Assembly (NCBI RefSeq): GCF_001019715.1
Contig: NZ_BBXJ01000001.1
Coordinates: forward strand, 1,364,001 to 1,428,000
Source of the DNA: Rodentibacter caecimuris
GTDB taxonomy: Bacteria; Pseudomonadota; Gammaproteobacteria; Enterobacterales; Pasteurellaceae
DNA length: 64,000 nt
Reading direction: 5' to 3'
A model generated the notes under the pieces. The model was not told where the DNA came from and made no database searches. It saw nothing but the letters and a program-made list of their open reading frames with translations. Both the position numbers and the translations under genes were made by a program. Each line of letters begins with the position of its first letter. Within the stretch, counting starts at the first letter, position 1. This document shows, one piece after another, positions 12,483 to 19,652 of this stretch.

Positions 12483-13259
<777 letters not shown>

Positions 13260-13274
13260 CACTCATCGTTAATT

Positions 13275-13358
13275 ATGATCTACTTTTTAATGGCTGTTAC
13301 CGTGTTAATTTTACTTATCGGGCTCTATCAAAAATTTTCAGGGAAAATGAAGAAATAA
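13275..13358 (+). CDS. Small membrane protein of 27 residues between rnfA and rnfB
   Basis: An ATG at 13275 opens a 27-codon frame whose stop shares one base with the rnfB start (TAATG at 13356-13360), the usual sign of translational coupling. The predicted peptide begins [18 protein letters not shown], one hydrophobic helix, and ends in a Lys-rich tail (KFSGKMKK), which predicts a cytoplasmic C-terminus. No strong Shine-Dalgarno sequence precedes the first ATG; an internal ATG at 13290 is possible. In E. coli the rsxA and rsxB genes are nearly adjacent, so the frame occupies extra sequence. I know of no described counterpart. Confidence 0.6.
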
Positions 13359-13939
13359 TGACTATTCTACTTATTGTCATCAGTCTGCTTGCGCTCATTT
13401 TCGGTGCTATTTTGGGATTTGCTTCCTTAAAACTAAAAGTGGAAGCCGATCCTATTGTAGAAAAAATTGATGCCATATTACCACAAAGCCAATGCGGTCA
13501 ATGCGGTTATCCCGGCTGCAAACCCTATGCGGAAGCAGTTTGCAATGGTGATTCAATTACCAAATGTGTTCCGGGCGGGCGGGACACCATAGTAAAAATT
13601 GCAGAGATTCTAGGTGTTGACGTGCCGGCAGTTGATGGCATGGAAGAACCGGTCGAAACCGTGGCGTTTATTGATGAAAATATGTGTATTGGCTGCACCA
13701 AATGTATTCAAGCCTGTCCGGTCGATGCCATTATTGGGACAAATAAAATGATGCACACTATTATTCCCGATCTTTGCACCGGCTGTGAACTTTGTGTCGC
13801 ACCTTGCCCGACAGATTGCATCTCAATGATTCCGGTAAAAAAAGGTATTGATAGTTGGGATTGGAAATTTGACGCAAAGCTGGTTATTCCGGTAGTGAAT
13901 GTGAACGGTAGCGAAAAAAAACGGGTTGTGGGGGAATAA
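13358..13939 (+). CDS. rnfB: Electron transport complex subunit RnfB
   Basis: A 193-residue iron-sulfur subunit of Rnf. An N-terminal membrane anchor (about residues 3-25) is followed by the Fe-S domain [15 protein letters not shown] and two 4Fe-4S ferredoxin motifs, [12 protein letters not shown] and [12 protein letters not shown]. It is the likely electron entry or relay subunit on the cytoplasmic face. Its start overlaps the stop of the 27-codon frame, and rnfC begins at the base after its stop. Confidence 0.95.
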
Positions 13940-16393
13940 ATGGCGGACGTTTTATCTCGTTTTAATTCCGGTAAACTATGGGATTTCAAAGGGGGAATTC
14001 ATCCTCCGGAAATGAAAGATCAATCTAACCATCAACCGATCAGAATACTTCCTTTAAGCAAGGATTTTTATATTCCGCTCAAACAACACTCAGGTCAGGC
14101 GGGTAATGTTTTAGTGAACGTCGGTGATTATGTTTTAAAAGGACAAGCCTTAACGCAAGGTGACGGTTTACGCGTACTCCCCGTTCATGCACCGACATCC
14201 GGCACAATTAAAAATATTGCCCCCTATGTCGCCGCACATCCTTCCGGGCTTGATGAAATGACTATTCATTTACAGGCTGACGGTTTGGATCAACATATTG
14301 AACAACACCCGATTGAAGATTTTCTTCACCTAACTGCGGAACAACTTATCGAAAAAATTTATCTTGCCGGCATTGCGGGCTTGGGAGGCGCCGTATTCCC
14401 TACCGCCGCCAAGATCCAATCAGCGGATAAAAAAGTCAAATTATTGATTATTAACGGTGCGGAATGTGAACCTTACATCACCTGTGATGATCGCCTAATG
14501 CGTGAACATGCCGATGAAATTATTGAAGGCGTGCGTATTTTACGCTATATCCTACGCCCTGAAAAAGTAGTTATCGCCATTGAAGATAACAAACCTAACG
14601 CCATTGAAGCAATTAATGCGGCGCTACACGGCGCAAATGATATTGATGTACGCGTAATCCCAACGAAATACCCGTCCGGCGCAGCAAAACAACTCATTTA
14701 TTTACTCACCGGTATGGAAGTGCCAAGCGGCTCACGCTCCTCCAATATTGGCGTTTTAATGCACAACGTGGGGACTGCTTTTGCGATAAAAAGAGCTGTC
14801 ATCAATGACGAACCTTTAATTGAACGCGTAGTTACATTAACCGGCGATAAAATTCAAGAAAAAGGGAATTATTGGGTACGTCTCGGCACGCCAATTTATC
14901 ACGCATTAACTCATACGGGTTATCAATTTGATGAACGTTTCCCTGTGTTCGTCGGCGGCCCAATGATGGGCTTGGAGCTACCGAATTTAAATGCACCGGT
15001 CACCAAAATCGTCAATTGCTTGCTTGCGCCGGATCATTTTGAATATACCGAACCGGAGCCGGAAAAAGCCTGTATTCGCTGCTCAAGCTGCTCGGACGCT
15101 TGTCCGGTAAATTTAATGCCACAGCAACTTTACTGGTTCGCACGCAGTGAAGATCACACAAAATCGGAAGAATATGCTTTAAAAGATTGTATTGAATGTG
15201 GCGTATGTGCTTATGTTTGCCCGAGCCATATCCCGCTTATTCAATATTTCCGCCAAGAAAAAGCAAAAATTTGGCAAATAAAAGAAAAACAGAAAAAAGC
15301 GGAAGAAGCAAAAATTCGCTTTGAAGCGAAACAAGCACGTATGGAACGTGAAGAACAGGAACGTAAAGCCCGTTCTCAACGCGCAGCTGAAGCCCGTCGC
15401 GAAGAATTAGCCAAAACCAAAGGCGAAGATCCGGTAAAAGCAGCATTAGCACGTCTCAAAGCGAAAAAAGCCGGTTCGGAAGAAATAACTCAGCAGAAAA
15501 CATTAACAACAGAAAAAGGCGAAATTTTACCGGATAATAGCGATATAACGGCATTGCGTAAAGCACGTCGTCTAGCCCGCCAACAAACGGAAATAAAAAC
15601 AGAACATCTTAATAATAGCGAAGAAACAGCCTCAGAAAATCCGAAAAAAGTCGCCGTGGCTGCCGCTATTGCCCGTGCGAAAGCTAAAAAATTGGCTCAG
15701 GCTAACCATAATGGTGATATAACAACGGAAAATGTGGAACAAGAAACAGGCGAAAAACCAACCGCACTTGATCCAAAAAAAGCGACTGTGGCTGCCGCTA
15801 TTGCCCGCGCAAAAGCCAAAAAATTGGCTCAAACTAACCATGATAGCGATATAACAACGGAAAATGCGGAGCAAAAAACAGACGAAAAACCAACCGCACT
15901 TGATCCGAAAAAAGCCGCTGTGGCTGCCGCTATCGCCCGTGCGAAAGCCAAGAAATTGGCTCAGACTAACCATGATAGCGATATAGCAACGGAAAATGCG
16001 GAGCAAAAAACGGACGAAAAACCAACCGCACTTGATCCGAAAAAAGCCGCTGTGGCTGCCGCTATTGCCCGTGCGAAAGCCAAGAAATTGGCTCAAACTA
16101 ACCATGATGGTGATATAACAACGGAAAGTGTGGAACAAAAAACAGACGAAAAACCAACCGCACTTGCTCCAAAAAAAGCGGCTGTGGCTGCCGCTATTGC
16201 CCGTGCGAAAGCCAAAAAATTGGCTCAGACTAACCATGATAGCGATATAACAACGGAAAATGCGGAACAAGAAACAGGCGAAAAACCAACCGCACTTGAT
16301 CCGAAAAAAGCCGCTGTGGCTGCTGCAATTGCCCGTGCGAAAGCCAAGAAATTGGCTCAAGCCCAACAGAAATCAGATAATGCACAGGAATAA
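13940..16393 (+). CDS. rnfC: Electron transport complex subunit RnfC with repeat-rich C-terminal tail
   Basis: An 817-residue peripheral subunit of Rnf thought to carry the NADH and flavin site. The conserved core (about residues 1-450) has a Gly-rich nucleotide region ([15 protein letters not shown]) and two 4Fe-4S clusters, [12 protein letters not shown] (from residue 378) and [12 protein letters not shown] (from 417). A charged, coiled-coil-like Lys/Glu/Ala-rich tail follows, and residues about 570-810 are five and a partial sixth copy of a 44-residue repeat containing [13 protein letters not shown]. The start lies one base after the rnfB stop, with GGGGGAA as ribosome binding site. Ala/Lys-rich RnfC tails are common, but this one is long. 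Confidence 0.94.
15640..16370 (+). repeat. 132-bp in-frame tandem repeat inside rnfC, one USS per unit
   Basis: Five full units and a partial sixth of 132 bp (44 codons). The USS ACCGCACTT lies at 15761, 15893, 16025, 16157 and 16289, exactly 132 bp apart, each time coding for TAL in PTALDP or PTALAP. Units differ by a few substitutions. The unit length is a multiple of three, so copy-number change would keep the frame. Confidence 0.93.
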
Positions 16394-16396
16394 ACA

Positions 16397-17476
16397 ATGT
16401 TTAAAATGGTCAGTTCTCCTCACTCACATTCAGGGAAGTTAACAGCTCGTATTATGCTTTGGGTCATCTTAGCCATGATGCCGGCTCTATTTACACAAAT
16501 TTATTATTTTGGTTTCGGTGTACTCATTCAATCGGTATTAGCGATCATTGTGGCGTTACTTGCTGAATTGTTAGCAATGAAATTACGCGGTAAAAAGCCG
16601 TTATCCTATCTTTCCGATTTCAGCGTAGTTCTAACCGCCTTGATTTTAGCCGTGGCAATTCCTCCCTATGCCCCTTATTGGATTATTATTATCGGTACAC
16701 TTTGTGCGGTACTACTGGGTAAACATGTGTATGGCGGATTAGGGCAAAACCCCTTTAATCCGGCAATGATTGGCTATGTCGTATTATTAATTTCGTTCCC
16801 ATTACAAATGACTACTTGGATACCGCCAATTCATTTATTGCAGGAACCGCCTACACTCTCCGATGCTGTCGCATTAATTTTTTCTGGCTTAACCACCGAT
16901 GGATTTTCCTTGCCACAACTTACCCATAGTATTGACGGCATCACGCAGGCTACACCGTTAGACAGTGCAAAAATCTTTTATTCTAATCACAAAGAATTAA
17001 CGGATTTCTATGAACTGATTAAAATGCCAATTTTTATGGGGAACGGTACGGACTTTGCACAGGGGTGGTGGCAAGTCAATCTTGCTTTTTTACTCGGCGG
17101 CGTATTTTTAATCTTAAAACGCACCATTCATTGGCAAATCCCCGTAGCAATGCTCACCACATTTTTTTGCTTGGCAACCATTACCGCCATAACGGGGGGG
17201 ACACATTTAAGTGCGGTGAGCCAAATGTTCAGCGGTGCAATGATGTTTGGCGCATTTTTTATTGCGACCGATCCGGTTACAGCCTCCATTACACCGCGTG
17301 GAAAAATCGTATTTGGCGCATTAGTAGGACTTCTCACCTATCTTATCCGCTATCACGGCAATTACCCTGACGGCGTTGCATTTGCGATTTTATTAAGTAA
17401 TATCTGCGTTCCTCTCATCGACCATTACACCCGCCCTCGTGTTGCGGGCTACGGCATAAAAGGGAGAAAAAACTAA
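16397..17476 (+). CDS. rnfD: Electron transport complex subunit RnfD
   Basis: A 359-residue polytopic membrane subunit of Rnf that holds a covalently bound FMN. The modified residue is probably Thr186 in [10 protein letters not shown], which aligns with Thr187 of the E. coli and Vibrio proteins. Other conserved stretches are [12 protein letters not shown] and the C-terminal [15 protein letters not shown]. The gene starts three bases after the rnfC stop and its own stop overlaps the rnfG start (TAATG). Confidence 0.95.
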
Positions 17477-18102
17477 TGGGCATTATTAAAACTACTTCTC
17501 AATATGGCGTGATTTTAGGCTTTATTGCGCTACTTTGTAGTGCTATTTCATCCGGCATTTTTTTTCTGACAAAAGGTAAAATTGATGAAGCCATGGCGGC
17601 ACAACAACGGGAACTCCTGCTCCAAGTAATCCCACAAAGCTATTTTGATAATAATTTGCTAGAAAGTGCAGTGACGCCAAAGTCAGAAGATTTAGCCGGT
17701 ATTCAAAAAGTTTATTTCGCAAAGAAAGACCATCATCTTTCAGCCTATGTCTATGAAACAACCGCACCGGACGGCTATTCCGGCGATATTCGCTTACTTG
17801 TCGGTTTAACGCCTGAGGGCAACGTGTTAGGCGTACGGGTGATCGAGCATCATGAAACACCGGGGTTAGGCGATAAAATCGAACTCCGTATTTCCAAGTG
17901 GATTTTATCTTTCGATCATCAGTCTATTAATGAAACTAATTTAACCGATTGGGCGGTCAAAAAAGACGGCGGAAAATTTGATCAATTCTCCGGAGCAACC
18001 ATTACTCCCCGCGCCATTGTAAATCAAGTAAAACGTTCGGCCCTAACCATGCTTAACAATCAGGCAACATTGCAACAGATTGCGATTCAAGAAAGGGAAT
18101 AA
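17476..18102 (+). CDS. rnfG: Electron transport complex subunit RnfG
   Basis: A 208-residue subunit of Rnf with one N-terminal membrane anchor and a periplasmic FMN domain. The flavin is attached to the Thr of the SGAT motif (Thr175 in [12 protein letters not shown]). The upstream motif [12 protein letters not shown] is also typical of RnfG/NqrC. Its start overlaps the rnfD stop, and rnfE begins two bases after its stop. Confidence 0.95.
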
Positions 18103-18103
18103 T

Positions 18104-18817
18104 ATGACAAATTTAACGGAAAAAACCACCGCACTTGAAGAAGCGCTACCTCAAAACAACGTTAAGGATCAGACGGAAAAATCCGTATGGCGGGAAATTT
18201 TTATACAAGGCATTTGGAAAAATAATCCAGCAATCGTGCAGCTATTAGGGCTTTGTCCTTTATTGGCAGTTTCCAGTACTGCGACCAATGCTCTCGGTTT
18301 AGGGCTTGCAACCATGCTGGTTTTAATTTGCACCAATACGGTAATTTCGCTCTTTCGCAAGCAAATTCCTCACGAAATTCGCATTCCTATTTATGTGATG
18401 ATCATTGCAACGACTGTCACCGTGGTGCAATTATTAATGAATGCTTACACCTACAGATTGTATCAATCTCTTGGTATTTTTATTCCACTGATTGTGACAA
18501 ACTGTATTGTCATTGGTCGAGCTGAAGCCTTTGCGTCCAAAAATAATCTTTTACAGTCTATTTGGGACGGTTTCTCGATGGGGTTCGGTATGGCTTTAAG
18601 CCTTACTATGCTTGGCGCACTCCGTGAAATTTTCGGGCAAGGGACGATTTTTGAAGGTATCGAAAATCTTTTTGGCGAACAAGCAAAATTTCTCACTTTC
18701 CATATTTACCAAACGGATAGCAGCTTTTTACTCTTCATCCTGCCGCCGGGTGCATTTATTGGATTGGGATTACTCCTTGCCCTAAAAAATAGAATTGATA
18801 ACCGAAGAAAAATATAG
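18104..18817 (+). CDS. rnfE: Electron transport complex subunit RnfE
   Basis: A 237-residue polytopic subunit, paralogous to RnfA, completing the Rnf complex. The core from [20 protein letters not shown] through [19 protein letters not shown] and [16 protein letters not shown] matches E. coli RsxE. I chose the ATG at 18104, after AAAGGGA. About 27 residues precede the family's usual N-terminus, and this extension contains a USS (18128-18136) coding for TAL. An upstream in-frame start at 18080 lies inside rnfG and is not needed. Confidence 0.94.
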
Positions 18818-18820
18818 ATT

Positions 18821-18971
18821 GAACACACACTTAATCTTCCCCGTGTAAATAGCCCGACCGACTTGGCATTTTTAGGAAAATTTGTATTGTTTGAGCCAAC
18901 GGCGAGTTTACAAATTTTCCGTAAAGAAATGACAACAAAGGTCGGAAAAGCGATTTAATCGGGGTGTGTTC
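18821..18971. repeat. Nested palindromic intergenic element
   Basis: Three sets of perfect inverted arms are nested around one centre: GAACACAC (18821-18828) with GTGTGTTC (18964-18971), CCGACC (18854-18859) with GGTCGG (18940-18945), and GGAAAATTTGTA (18875-18886) with TACAAATTTTCC (18909-18920). The whole 150-bp stretch could fold into one long hairpin. It fills the gap between rnfE and nth and looks like a MITE-like or REP-like unit rather than a gene remnant. Confidence 0.65.
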
Positions 18972-19016: not shown

Positions 19017-19652
19017 ATGAATCAGAAAAAAAGAATTGAAATATTAACCCGACTACGGGATCAAAATCCCCACCCGACTACCGAATTGCAGTATAATTCG
19101 CCCTTCGAATTATTAATCGCGGTGATTTTATCGGCGCAAGCCACTGATAAAGGGGTAAATAAAGCGACAGAAAAACTTTTTCCCGTTGCCAATACTCCAC
19201 AAGCGATTTTAGATCTGGGCTTGGATGGCTTAAAAAGCTACATTAAAACGATCGGACTTTATAATAGTAAAGCAGAAAACATCATTAAAACCTGCCGCGA
19301 TCTCATTGAAAAACACAACGGTGAAATACCGGAAAATCGTGAAGCCTTAGAAGCTCTTGCCGGCGTTGGACGAAAAACTGCGAATGTGGTATTAAATACC
19401 GCCTTTGGTCACCCCACCATTGCAGTCGATACCCATATATTTCGCGTATGCAATCGCACTAATTTTGCACTGGGTAAAGATGTTGTCAAAGTGGAAGAAA
19501 AACTCTTAAAAGTGGTGCCCGATGAATTTAAAGTAGATGTGCATCACTGGCTGATCTTACACGGTCGTTACACTTGTGTTGCCAGAAAGCCCCGTTGCGG
19601 TTCCTGTATTATTGAGGATCTCTGCGAATATAAAGAAAAAACCGAATATTAA
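19017..19652 (+). CDS. nth: Endonuclease III
   Basis: A 211-residue DNA glycosylase/AP lyase removing oxidised pyrimidines, the same length as the E. coli enzyme. The helix-hairpin-helix LAGVGRKTANVVLN with the catalytic Lys, the catalytic Asp in VDTHIFRV, and the C-terminal 4Fe-4S ligands (CVARKPRCGSCIIEDLC) are intact. The ATG at 19017 follows GAAGGA and matches the family start; an in-frame start at 18966 would run through the hairpin. The rnf-nth order is as in E. coli. Confidence 0.95.
   Translation: MNQKKRIEILTRLRDQNPHPTTELQYNSPFELLIAVILSAQATDKGVNKATEKLFPVANTPQAILDLGLDGLKSYIKTIGLYNSKAENIIKTCRDLIEKHNGEIPENREALEALAGVGRKTANVVLNTAFGHPTIAVDTHIFRVCNRTNFALGKDVVKVEEKLLKVVPDEFKVDVHHWLILHGRYTCVARKPRCGSCIIEDLCEYKEKTEY

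Follow-up and report, generated by a model that had tools for sequence, protein, structure and literature searches.

A Small One-Helix Protein Gene Between rnfA and rnfB in One Branch of the Pasteurellaceae: A Candidate Accessory Subunit of the Rnf Pump

Rnf pumps link the transfer of electrons to the transport of ions. In Rodentibacter caecimuris, a very short gene separates rnfA from rnfB; it has been studied here in a window of this genome (the whole stretch of 64,000 nucleotides that was analysed) and across the family Pasteurellaceae. The gene is real; on balance, and with moderate confidence, we consider it to be specific to one clade, and to encode a one-helix accessory subunit of Rnf that likely arose by duplication of the 5' end of rnfB; the gene would be translated and its product would bind the Rnf complex. 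The conserved peptide is also encoded in Haemophilus influenzae (found there by a pattern scan for the first nine codons), where it constitutes a testable new candidate component of Rnf.

Gene Arrangement and Features of the Peptide

The operon is read on the + strand in the order rnfA, small gene, rnfB, rnfC, rnfD, rnfG, rnfE, followed by nth. The names rnfC, rnfD, rnfG and rnfE are presumed from general knowledge and operon order, and nth from general knowledge. The features are the following:

12681..13259, + strand: rnfA (RsxA), 192 amino acids, upstream neighbour (NCBIfam NF003481, E 3.8e-102; PF02508)
13275..13358, + strand: gene of a 27-amino-acid single-helix membrane protein (27-codon frame, ATG start; open reading frame and translation)
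13337..13357, + strand: 21-nt stretch with the rnfB Shine-Dalgarno, within the 3' end of the small gene (anti-SD duplex -4.6 kcal/mol)
13356..13360, + strand: TAATG, where the small gene stops and rnfB starts, the two sharing a base (read from the sequence)
13358..13939, + strand: rnfB (RsxB), 193 amino acids, with an N-terminal anchor helix that appears to resemble the small protein (NCBIfam NF003475, E 4.1e-91)
13940..16393, + strand: rnfC, 817 amino acids, a 132-bp unit being repeated 5.5 times in tandem towards its end (open reading frame, operon order, relatives)
16397..17476, + strand: rnfD (open reading frame, operon order, relatives)
17476..18102, + strand: rnfG (open reading frame, operon order, relatives)
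18104..18817, + strand: rnfE (open reading frame, operon order, relatives; ATG at 18104 chosen, the listed frame starting with TTG at 18080)
19017..19652, + strand: nth, endonuclease III (open reading frame, relatives; ATG at 19017 chosen, the listed frame starting with GTG at 18966)

The small gene begins 15 nt downstream of the rnfA stop (13257-13259) and ends with TAA at 13356-13358, whose final A is common to the rnfB ATG at 13358. An earlier note, made on the letters of the window, had described just such a frame of 27 codons in the rnfA-rnfB gap, with an ATG start, one helix, a Lys-rich tail and a stop overlapping the start of rnfB, and it is indeed present at 13275-13358. Judged by eye, its product has a single hydrophobic stretch, approximately at residues 2-18, followed by the Lys-rich tail; cysteines and iron-sulfur domains are absent. 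Part of this tail is the purine-rich stretch upstream of rnfB, namely the rnfB Shine-Dalgarno (-4.6), read as codons. According to the positive-inside rule, basic residues lie on the cytoplasmic side of the membrane; because such residues are found at the C-terminus of the small protein, its predicted orientation is N-out, C-in, the same as that of the RnfB anchor.

From the perspective of translation signals, a Shine-Dalgarno is lacking in front of the small gene in this genome (anti-SD duplex +0.6 kcal/mol), and the duplexes of six other genes (rnfA, rnfB, rnfC, rnfD, rnfG and nth) range from -4.3 to -8.4 kcal/mol. A promoter scan of the operon gave 11 sites vs 15.7 expected, and a search for RNA elements returned three matches, all below gathering scores and none within the frame of the small gene. 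The peptide has no Pfam match at the curated cut-off (the best, UPF0114, reaches 14.4 bits vs a cut-off of 23.1), no match in NCBIfam, a best E of 0.17 in PHROGs and no match among solved structures.

Distribution in the Pasteurellaceae

The sample comprised 140 Pasteurellaceae genomes, one per species, from 43 genera, all of them (140/140) with a match to RnfA, and the rnfA-rnfB junctions were taken from every genome, 139 by script and one (G032) by hand. A search with the single peptide sequence found 25 of the 140 genomes at E 2.8e-5 or better. By position, the frame is present in 37/140 species, that is, in 15/15 Rodentibacter (g1), 10/10 Haemophilus (g19, including influenzae, haemolyticus, aegyptius and others), 11/11 members of the parainfluenzae group (g22) and the only genome of a further genus, g39. 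Ten of the 11 parainfluenzae-group genomes and the g39 genome, missed by the single-sequence search, were found in this way. In all 37 carriers the gene lies between rnfA and rnfB; it encodes 20-30 amino acids, and all 37 peptides are free of cysteine. A one-base overlap of stop and start joins it to rnfB in 32/37 carriers; at the other end, it overlaps rnfA through ATGA in 14/37 and starts 4-15 nt past the stop of rnfA in the remaining 23. No frame broken beside an intact rnf operon, the kind of relative that the earlier note had set against its own proposal, was seen: the frame is open throughout the three carrier genera (36/36 genomes) and, in a short form, in the g39 genome. Two unusual forms deserve mention. 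The g39 gene (L057, G131) has 20 residues and a stop that ends 22 nt before rnfB, and the RnfB of this genome lies on a long branch; in a member of the Rodentibacter genus (G121, L020) the gene encodes 30 residues, of which two are inserted and one is added at the end, and ATGA replaces TAATG at the junction with rnfB.

The other 103 of the 140 species have no such frame between rnfA and rnfB. In 102 of these 103 non-carriers the two genes overlap or are at most 14 nt apart, the 102 parsed spacers ranging from -4 to 14 nt, with 68 of them at -1 (G039 and G106, for example, have -1 each). The single non-carrier with a long spacer (G032, L098) has 347 nt and an 81-codon frame, in which the peptide finds no match at E <= 10. 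The suggestion of the earlier note that the product could be a small Rnf subunit or assembly factor has thus been narrowed: the real coding frame, coupled to rnfB, stands, but a general subunit of Rnf is ruled out, given that 103/140 Pasteurellaceae species have rnfA and rnfB without the frame.

A DNA pattern of the first nine codons, run against a species-genome collection, gave 27 stretches, 21 of them from Pasteurellaceae and six from other organisms; no rnfB motif is found in the available stretch of the six. One of the 21, a contig labelled Pseudomonas stutzeri NCTC11607 (CABDVE010000001.1, L170), has the junction pattern and agrees in length with a contig of a Rodentibacter genome (G128), and it looks mislabelled.

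Selection on the Protein

The amino acids of the small protein are under selection, which in two groups is looser than the selection acting on RnfB and in the third about equally tight. Codon tests were made on the 27-residue forms of Rodentibacter (12/15) and of all 10 Haemophilus, and on the 24-residue forms of the parainfluenzae group (10/11). A synonymous bias, for which the earlier note had proposed to check the rnfA-rnfB spacers of other Pasteurellaceae, is evident in the carriers, with in-frame pN/pS values of 0.04-0.24 and a value of 1 for omega rejected. When only distinct sequences are counted (12 in Rodentibacter, seven in Haemophilus, seven in the parainfluenzae group), pN/pS in frame is 0.18, 0.17 and 0.04, respectively, and for Rodentibacter and Haemophilus together it is 0.24 in frame vs 0.68 and 1.23 when the same set is read in either shifted frame. 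Codons 2-22 alone give 0.17 in Rodentibacter, 0.16 in Haemophilus, 0.045 in the parainfluenzae group and 0.24 in the first two pooled.

The codon model, calculated on the rnfB tree with a null of omega 1 in which kappa was tried at seven values, gave an omega of 0.203 for Rodentibacter (2dlnL vs omega 1 = 18.5), 0.155 for Haemophilus (13.3), 0.200 for the two together (32.0) and 0.022 for the parainfluenzae group (25.1). For the first 18 codons of 35 of the 37 carriers (G121 and G131 being left out), omega is 0.062 (2dlnL 88.7). The same model gives 0.03-0.07 for rnfB.

Resemblance to the RnfB Anchor

Common to the small protein and the anchor helix at the start of RnfB are the hydrophobic pattern, an aromatic residue near the start, a Gly near the end of the helix, a basic flank and the predicted orientation. 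The two differ in that the small protein is a separate gene product without the iron-sulfur domains of RnfB, and the statistics of the likeness are weak. The background consisted of 537 helices from 464 kb of the genome to which the window belongs. When 85 RnfB N-termini from non-carriers are scored over the 18 columns in common, their median exceeds 534/537 of these helices; the other three, unrelated to RnfB, reach this median, and the single RnfB N-termini shown rank from 1 to 64 of 538. By local alignment, the RnfB of the window itself scores 31.7, ranking 5/538 overall and 2/86 among N-terminal helices, and shuffling its columns gave a mean of 23.8 (sd 1.2) and a maximum of 26.6 in 100 shuffles, vs the 31.7 observed. 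The top background helix, with 43.2 vs 31.7 for RnfB, belongs to an unrelated 126-residue protein starting MIYFLVIVLIAVVFTT (L204, reverse strand, position 14374 on that strand), and its score is probably due to chance. Tyr3 of the peptide aligns with Tyr in 53/85 RnfB N-termini, and with Tyr, Trp or Phe in 68/85. A profile comparison with hhalign gave E 5.5e-5 and a probability of 66, for 18 hand-picked N-termini of the 85 and with an E-value that refers to one pair. The likeness of the small protein to the RnfB anchor is suggestive; it is weak in absolute terms, and hydrophobic helices resemble one another.

A second line of evidence comes from the start of RnfB. From this start to the first Cys motif there are 44-45 residues in 36/37 carriers and 48 in g39, and 46-55 residues in 102/102 parsed non-carriers; the split between carriers and non-carriers holds when the earliest in-frame ATG, GTG or TTG is used. 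Since a duplication of the 5' end of rnfB predicts a later RnfB start wherever the upstream look-alike appears, the split fits a duplication, although the carriers, being kin, represent a small number of events.

History on the RnfB Tree

The tree was built from RnfB without its first 30 residues, i.e., the anchor region, for 139/140 genomes (G032 was left out). The 36 carriers of the three genera share one fork with a support of 83/87, which is moderate and outside the well-supported forks. The carrier label requires two changes on the tree, because the g39 genome sits elsewhere, on a long branch; none of 200 bootstrap trees (0%) needs only one change, and none of 500 shuffles of the label gave as few as two. 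The simplest reading is one gain for the 36 carriers, in the Haemophilus-Rodentibacter branch of the Pasteurellaceae; for g39 we are unsure.

Proposed Role and Alternative Explanations

From operon position, predicted topology and resemblance to the RnfB anchor, we infer a role as a subunit or an assembly factor of Rnf. Within the favoured reading of an accessory subunit, ribosomes that finish rnfA would restart at the small gene and then at rnfB, and through these coupled restarts the peptide would be produced in step with the pump. In the membrane it would take the orientation of the RnfB anchor, N-terminus out and Lys tail on the cytoplasmic side, and would pack against the portion of Rnf that is embedded there, most likely next to the anchor helices of RnfB and RnfG, acting as a stabilising accessory subunit. 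One solved Rnf is described as having the RnfB anchor helix in interaction with that of RnfG, and the adjoining RnfB domain as moving during electron transfer (PMC11889175); a second RnfB-like helix could sit at these anchors and steady that of RnfB. In the first 120 alignment columns of RnfG, compared by eye in 21 operons, no helix is gained or lost in carriers. The most likely origin would be a tandem duplication of the 5' end of rnfB, whose upstream copy kept the old start and the helix, so that the downstream rnfB may now start a few codons later.

A more specific form of this reading is offered tentatively: the duplicated RnfB anchor may have become a separate, stoichiometric Rnf subunit, the N-terminus of RnfB being shortened in step, and may sit beside the RnfB and RnfG helices, tuning the mobile electron-carrying domain of RnfB. 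If the RnfB origin is true, a subunit was born by copying the anchor helix of a neighbour, and the start of the donor gene was shifted in step.

Considerably less likely is an assembly or insertion factor, which would act only during the membrane insertion of RnfB or of a neighbour and would be absent from the finished pump. The gene lies directly before rnfB, its product resembles the RnfB anchor and RnfB starts later in carriers, all of which would suit such a factor. NqrM maturation proteins use cysteines for iron; as none of the 37 peptides contains a cysteine, the small protein has no claim to be a counterpart of the iron-delivering NqrM, and a protein of that type is ruled out. NqrM offers a precedent, being described as a small membrane-bound maturation protein that is encoded in the operon of the homologous Nqr pump, is needed by it and is thought to serve the insertion of the membrane [2Fe-2S] cluster (PMC12174285).

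It is improbable that the frame is a coupling device only, which would relay ribosomes from rnfA into rnfB and control how much RnfB is made, with a functionless peptide. The tight junctions (one-base overlap with rnfB in 32/37, ATGA with rnfA in 14/37) and the rnfB Shine-Dalgarno inside the frame are what such a device would have. However, the amino acids would then not be needed, yet omega is 0.02-0.20 and pN/pS is low for codons 2-22; moreover, little would be gained, given that 102/103 non-carriers already have overlapping genes or genes at most 14 nt apart.

Peptides of one helix serve many purposes, and the small protein might be a membrane peptide that works outside Rnf and is simply carried along in the operon. 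We regard this as slightly more improbable still, because the gene lies between rnfA and rnfB in 37/37 carriers and little resembling it stands elsewhere among the matches listed. The peptide alignment was searched against 394 genomes of the order (family members included, drawn from a larger group), and 214 of them gave at least one match at E <= 1; among the matches listed, none outside the Pasteurellaceae was better than E 8.2e-4. The best 20 lesser loci (L174-L193; 19 outside the family and one in a non-carrier of the family) are near chance and have no rnfB motif. Within the genome from which the window comes, the profile of the small protein finds its next match with E 0.39, and this match contains a stop. 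Finally, a chance open frame in the spacer, to which the shortness of 27 codons might point and which the earlier note had rightly called unlikely, is rejected as highly improbable by the same frame in the same place in 37 of the 140 species and by the codon tests, where omega 1 is rejected with values far below 1 and the shifted frames have no such bias.

Comparison With Known Systems

Very short one-helix proteins encoded in the operons of respiratory complexes are well represented by CydX of cytochrome bd oxidase (with CydY and CydZ), which is described as present with only some versions of its complex, CydX pairing with the long Q-loop of CydA (PMC4325964). The small protein would be of the same kind: it is shorter than about 50 residues, has one predicted helix, is encoded in the operon of a complex and is selected as a protein; in both cases, moreover, a large subunit of the complex differs between carriers and non-carriers. 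The complex is, however, a different one, the likeness carries no claim of sequence relationship, and CydX is an established component, the small protein a candidate one. It also looks like CcoQ and similar one-helix proteins that have been described, together with CydX, in respiratory complexes (PMC10903887). An extra subunit in the Rnf of one lineage has a parallel in RnfH of Azotobacter vinelandii Rnf1, which is described as cytoplasmic (PMC12174285), unlike the predicted membrane helix considered here.

In the available portions of the papers on the solved Rnf complexes, which come from other lineages, no such helix is listed (PMC11889175, PMC12174285), and no report of a small protein between rnfA and rnfB was listed in searches of the open-access literature. 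The genome paper of H. influenzae KR494, in the portion available, gives the operon as rnfABCDGE and the enzyme as one of six subunits; it also describes a partial second rnf cluster beside the complete one, with rnfA, rnfB and rnfD close to those of H. haemolyticus (PMC3928620).

A minor observation regards rnfC. The 5.5 tandem copies of the 132-bp unit near its end, at 15639-16360, have 90% matches and are rich in Ala and Lys when read. In the 21 genomes compared, the RnfC frame has a length of 630-894 residues.
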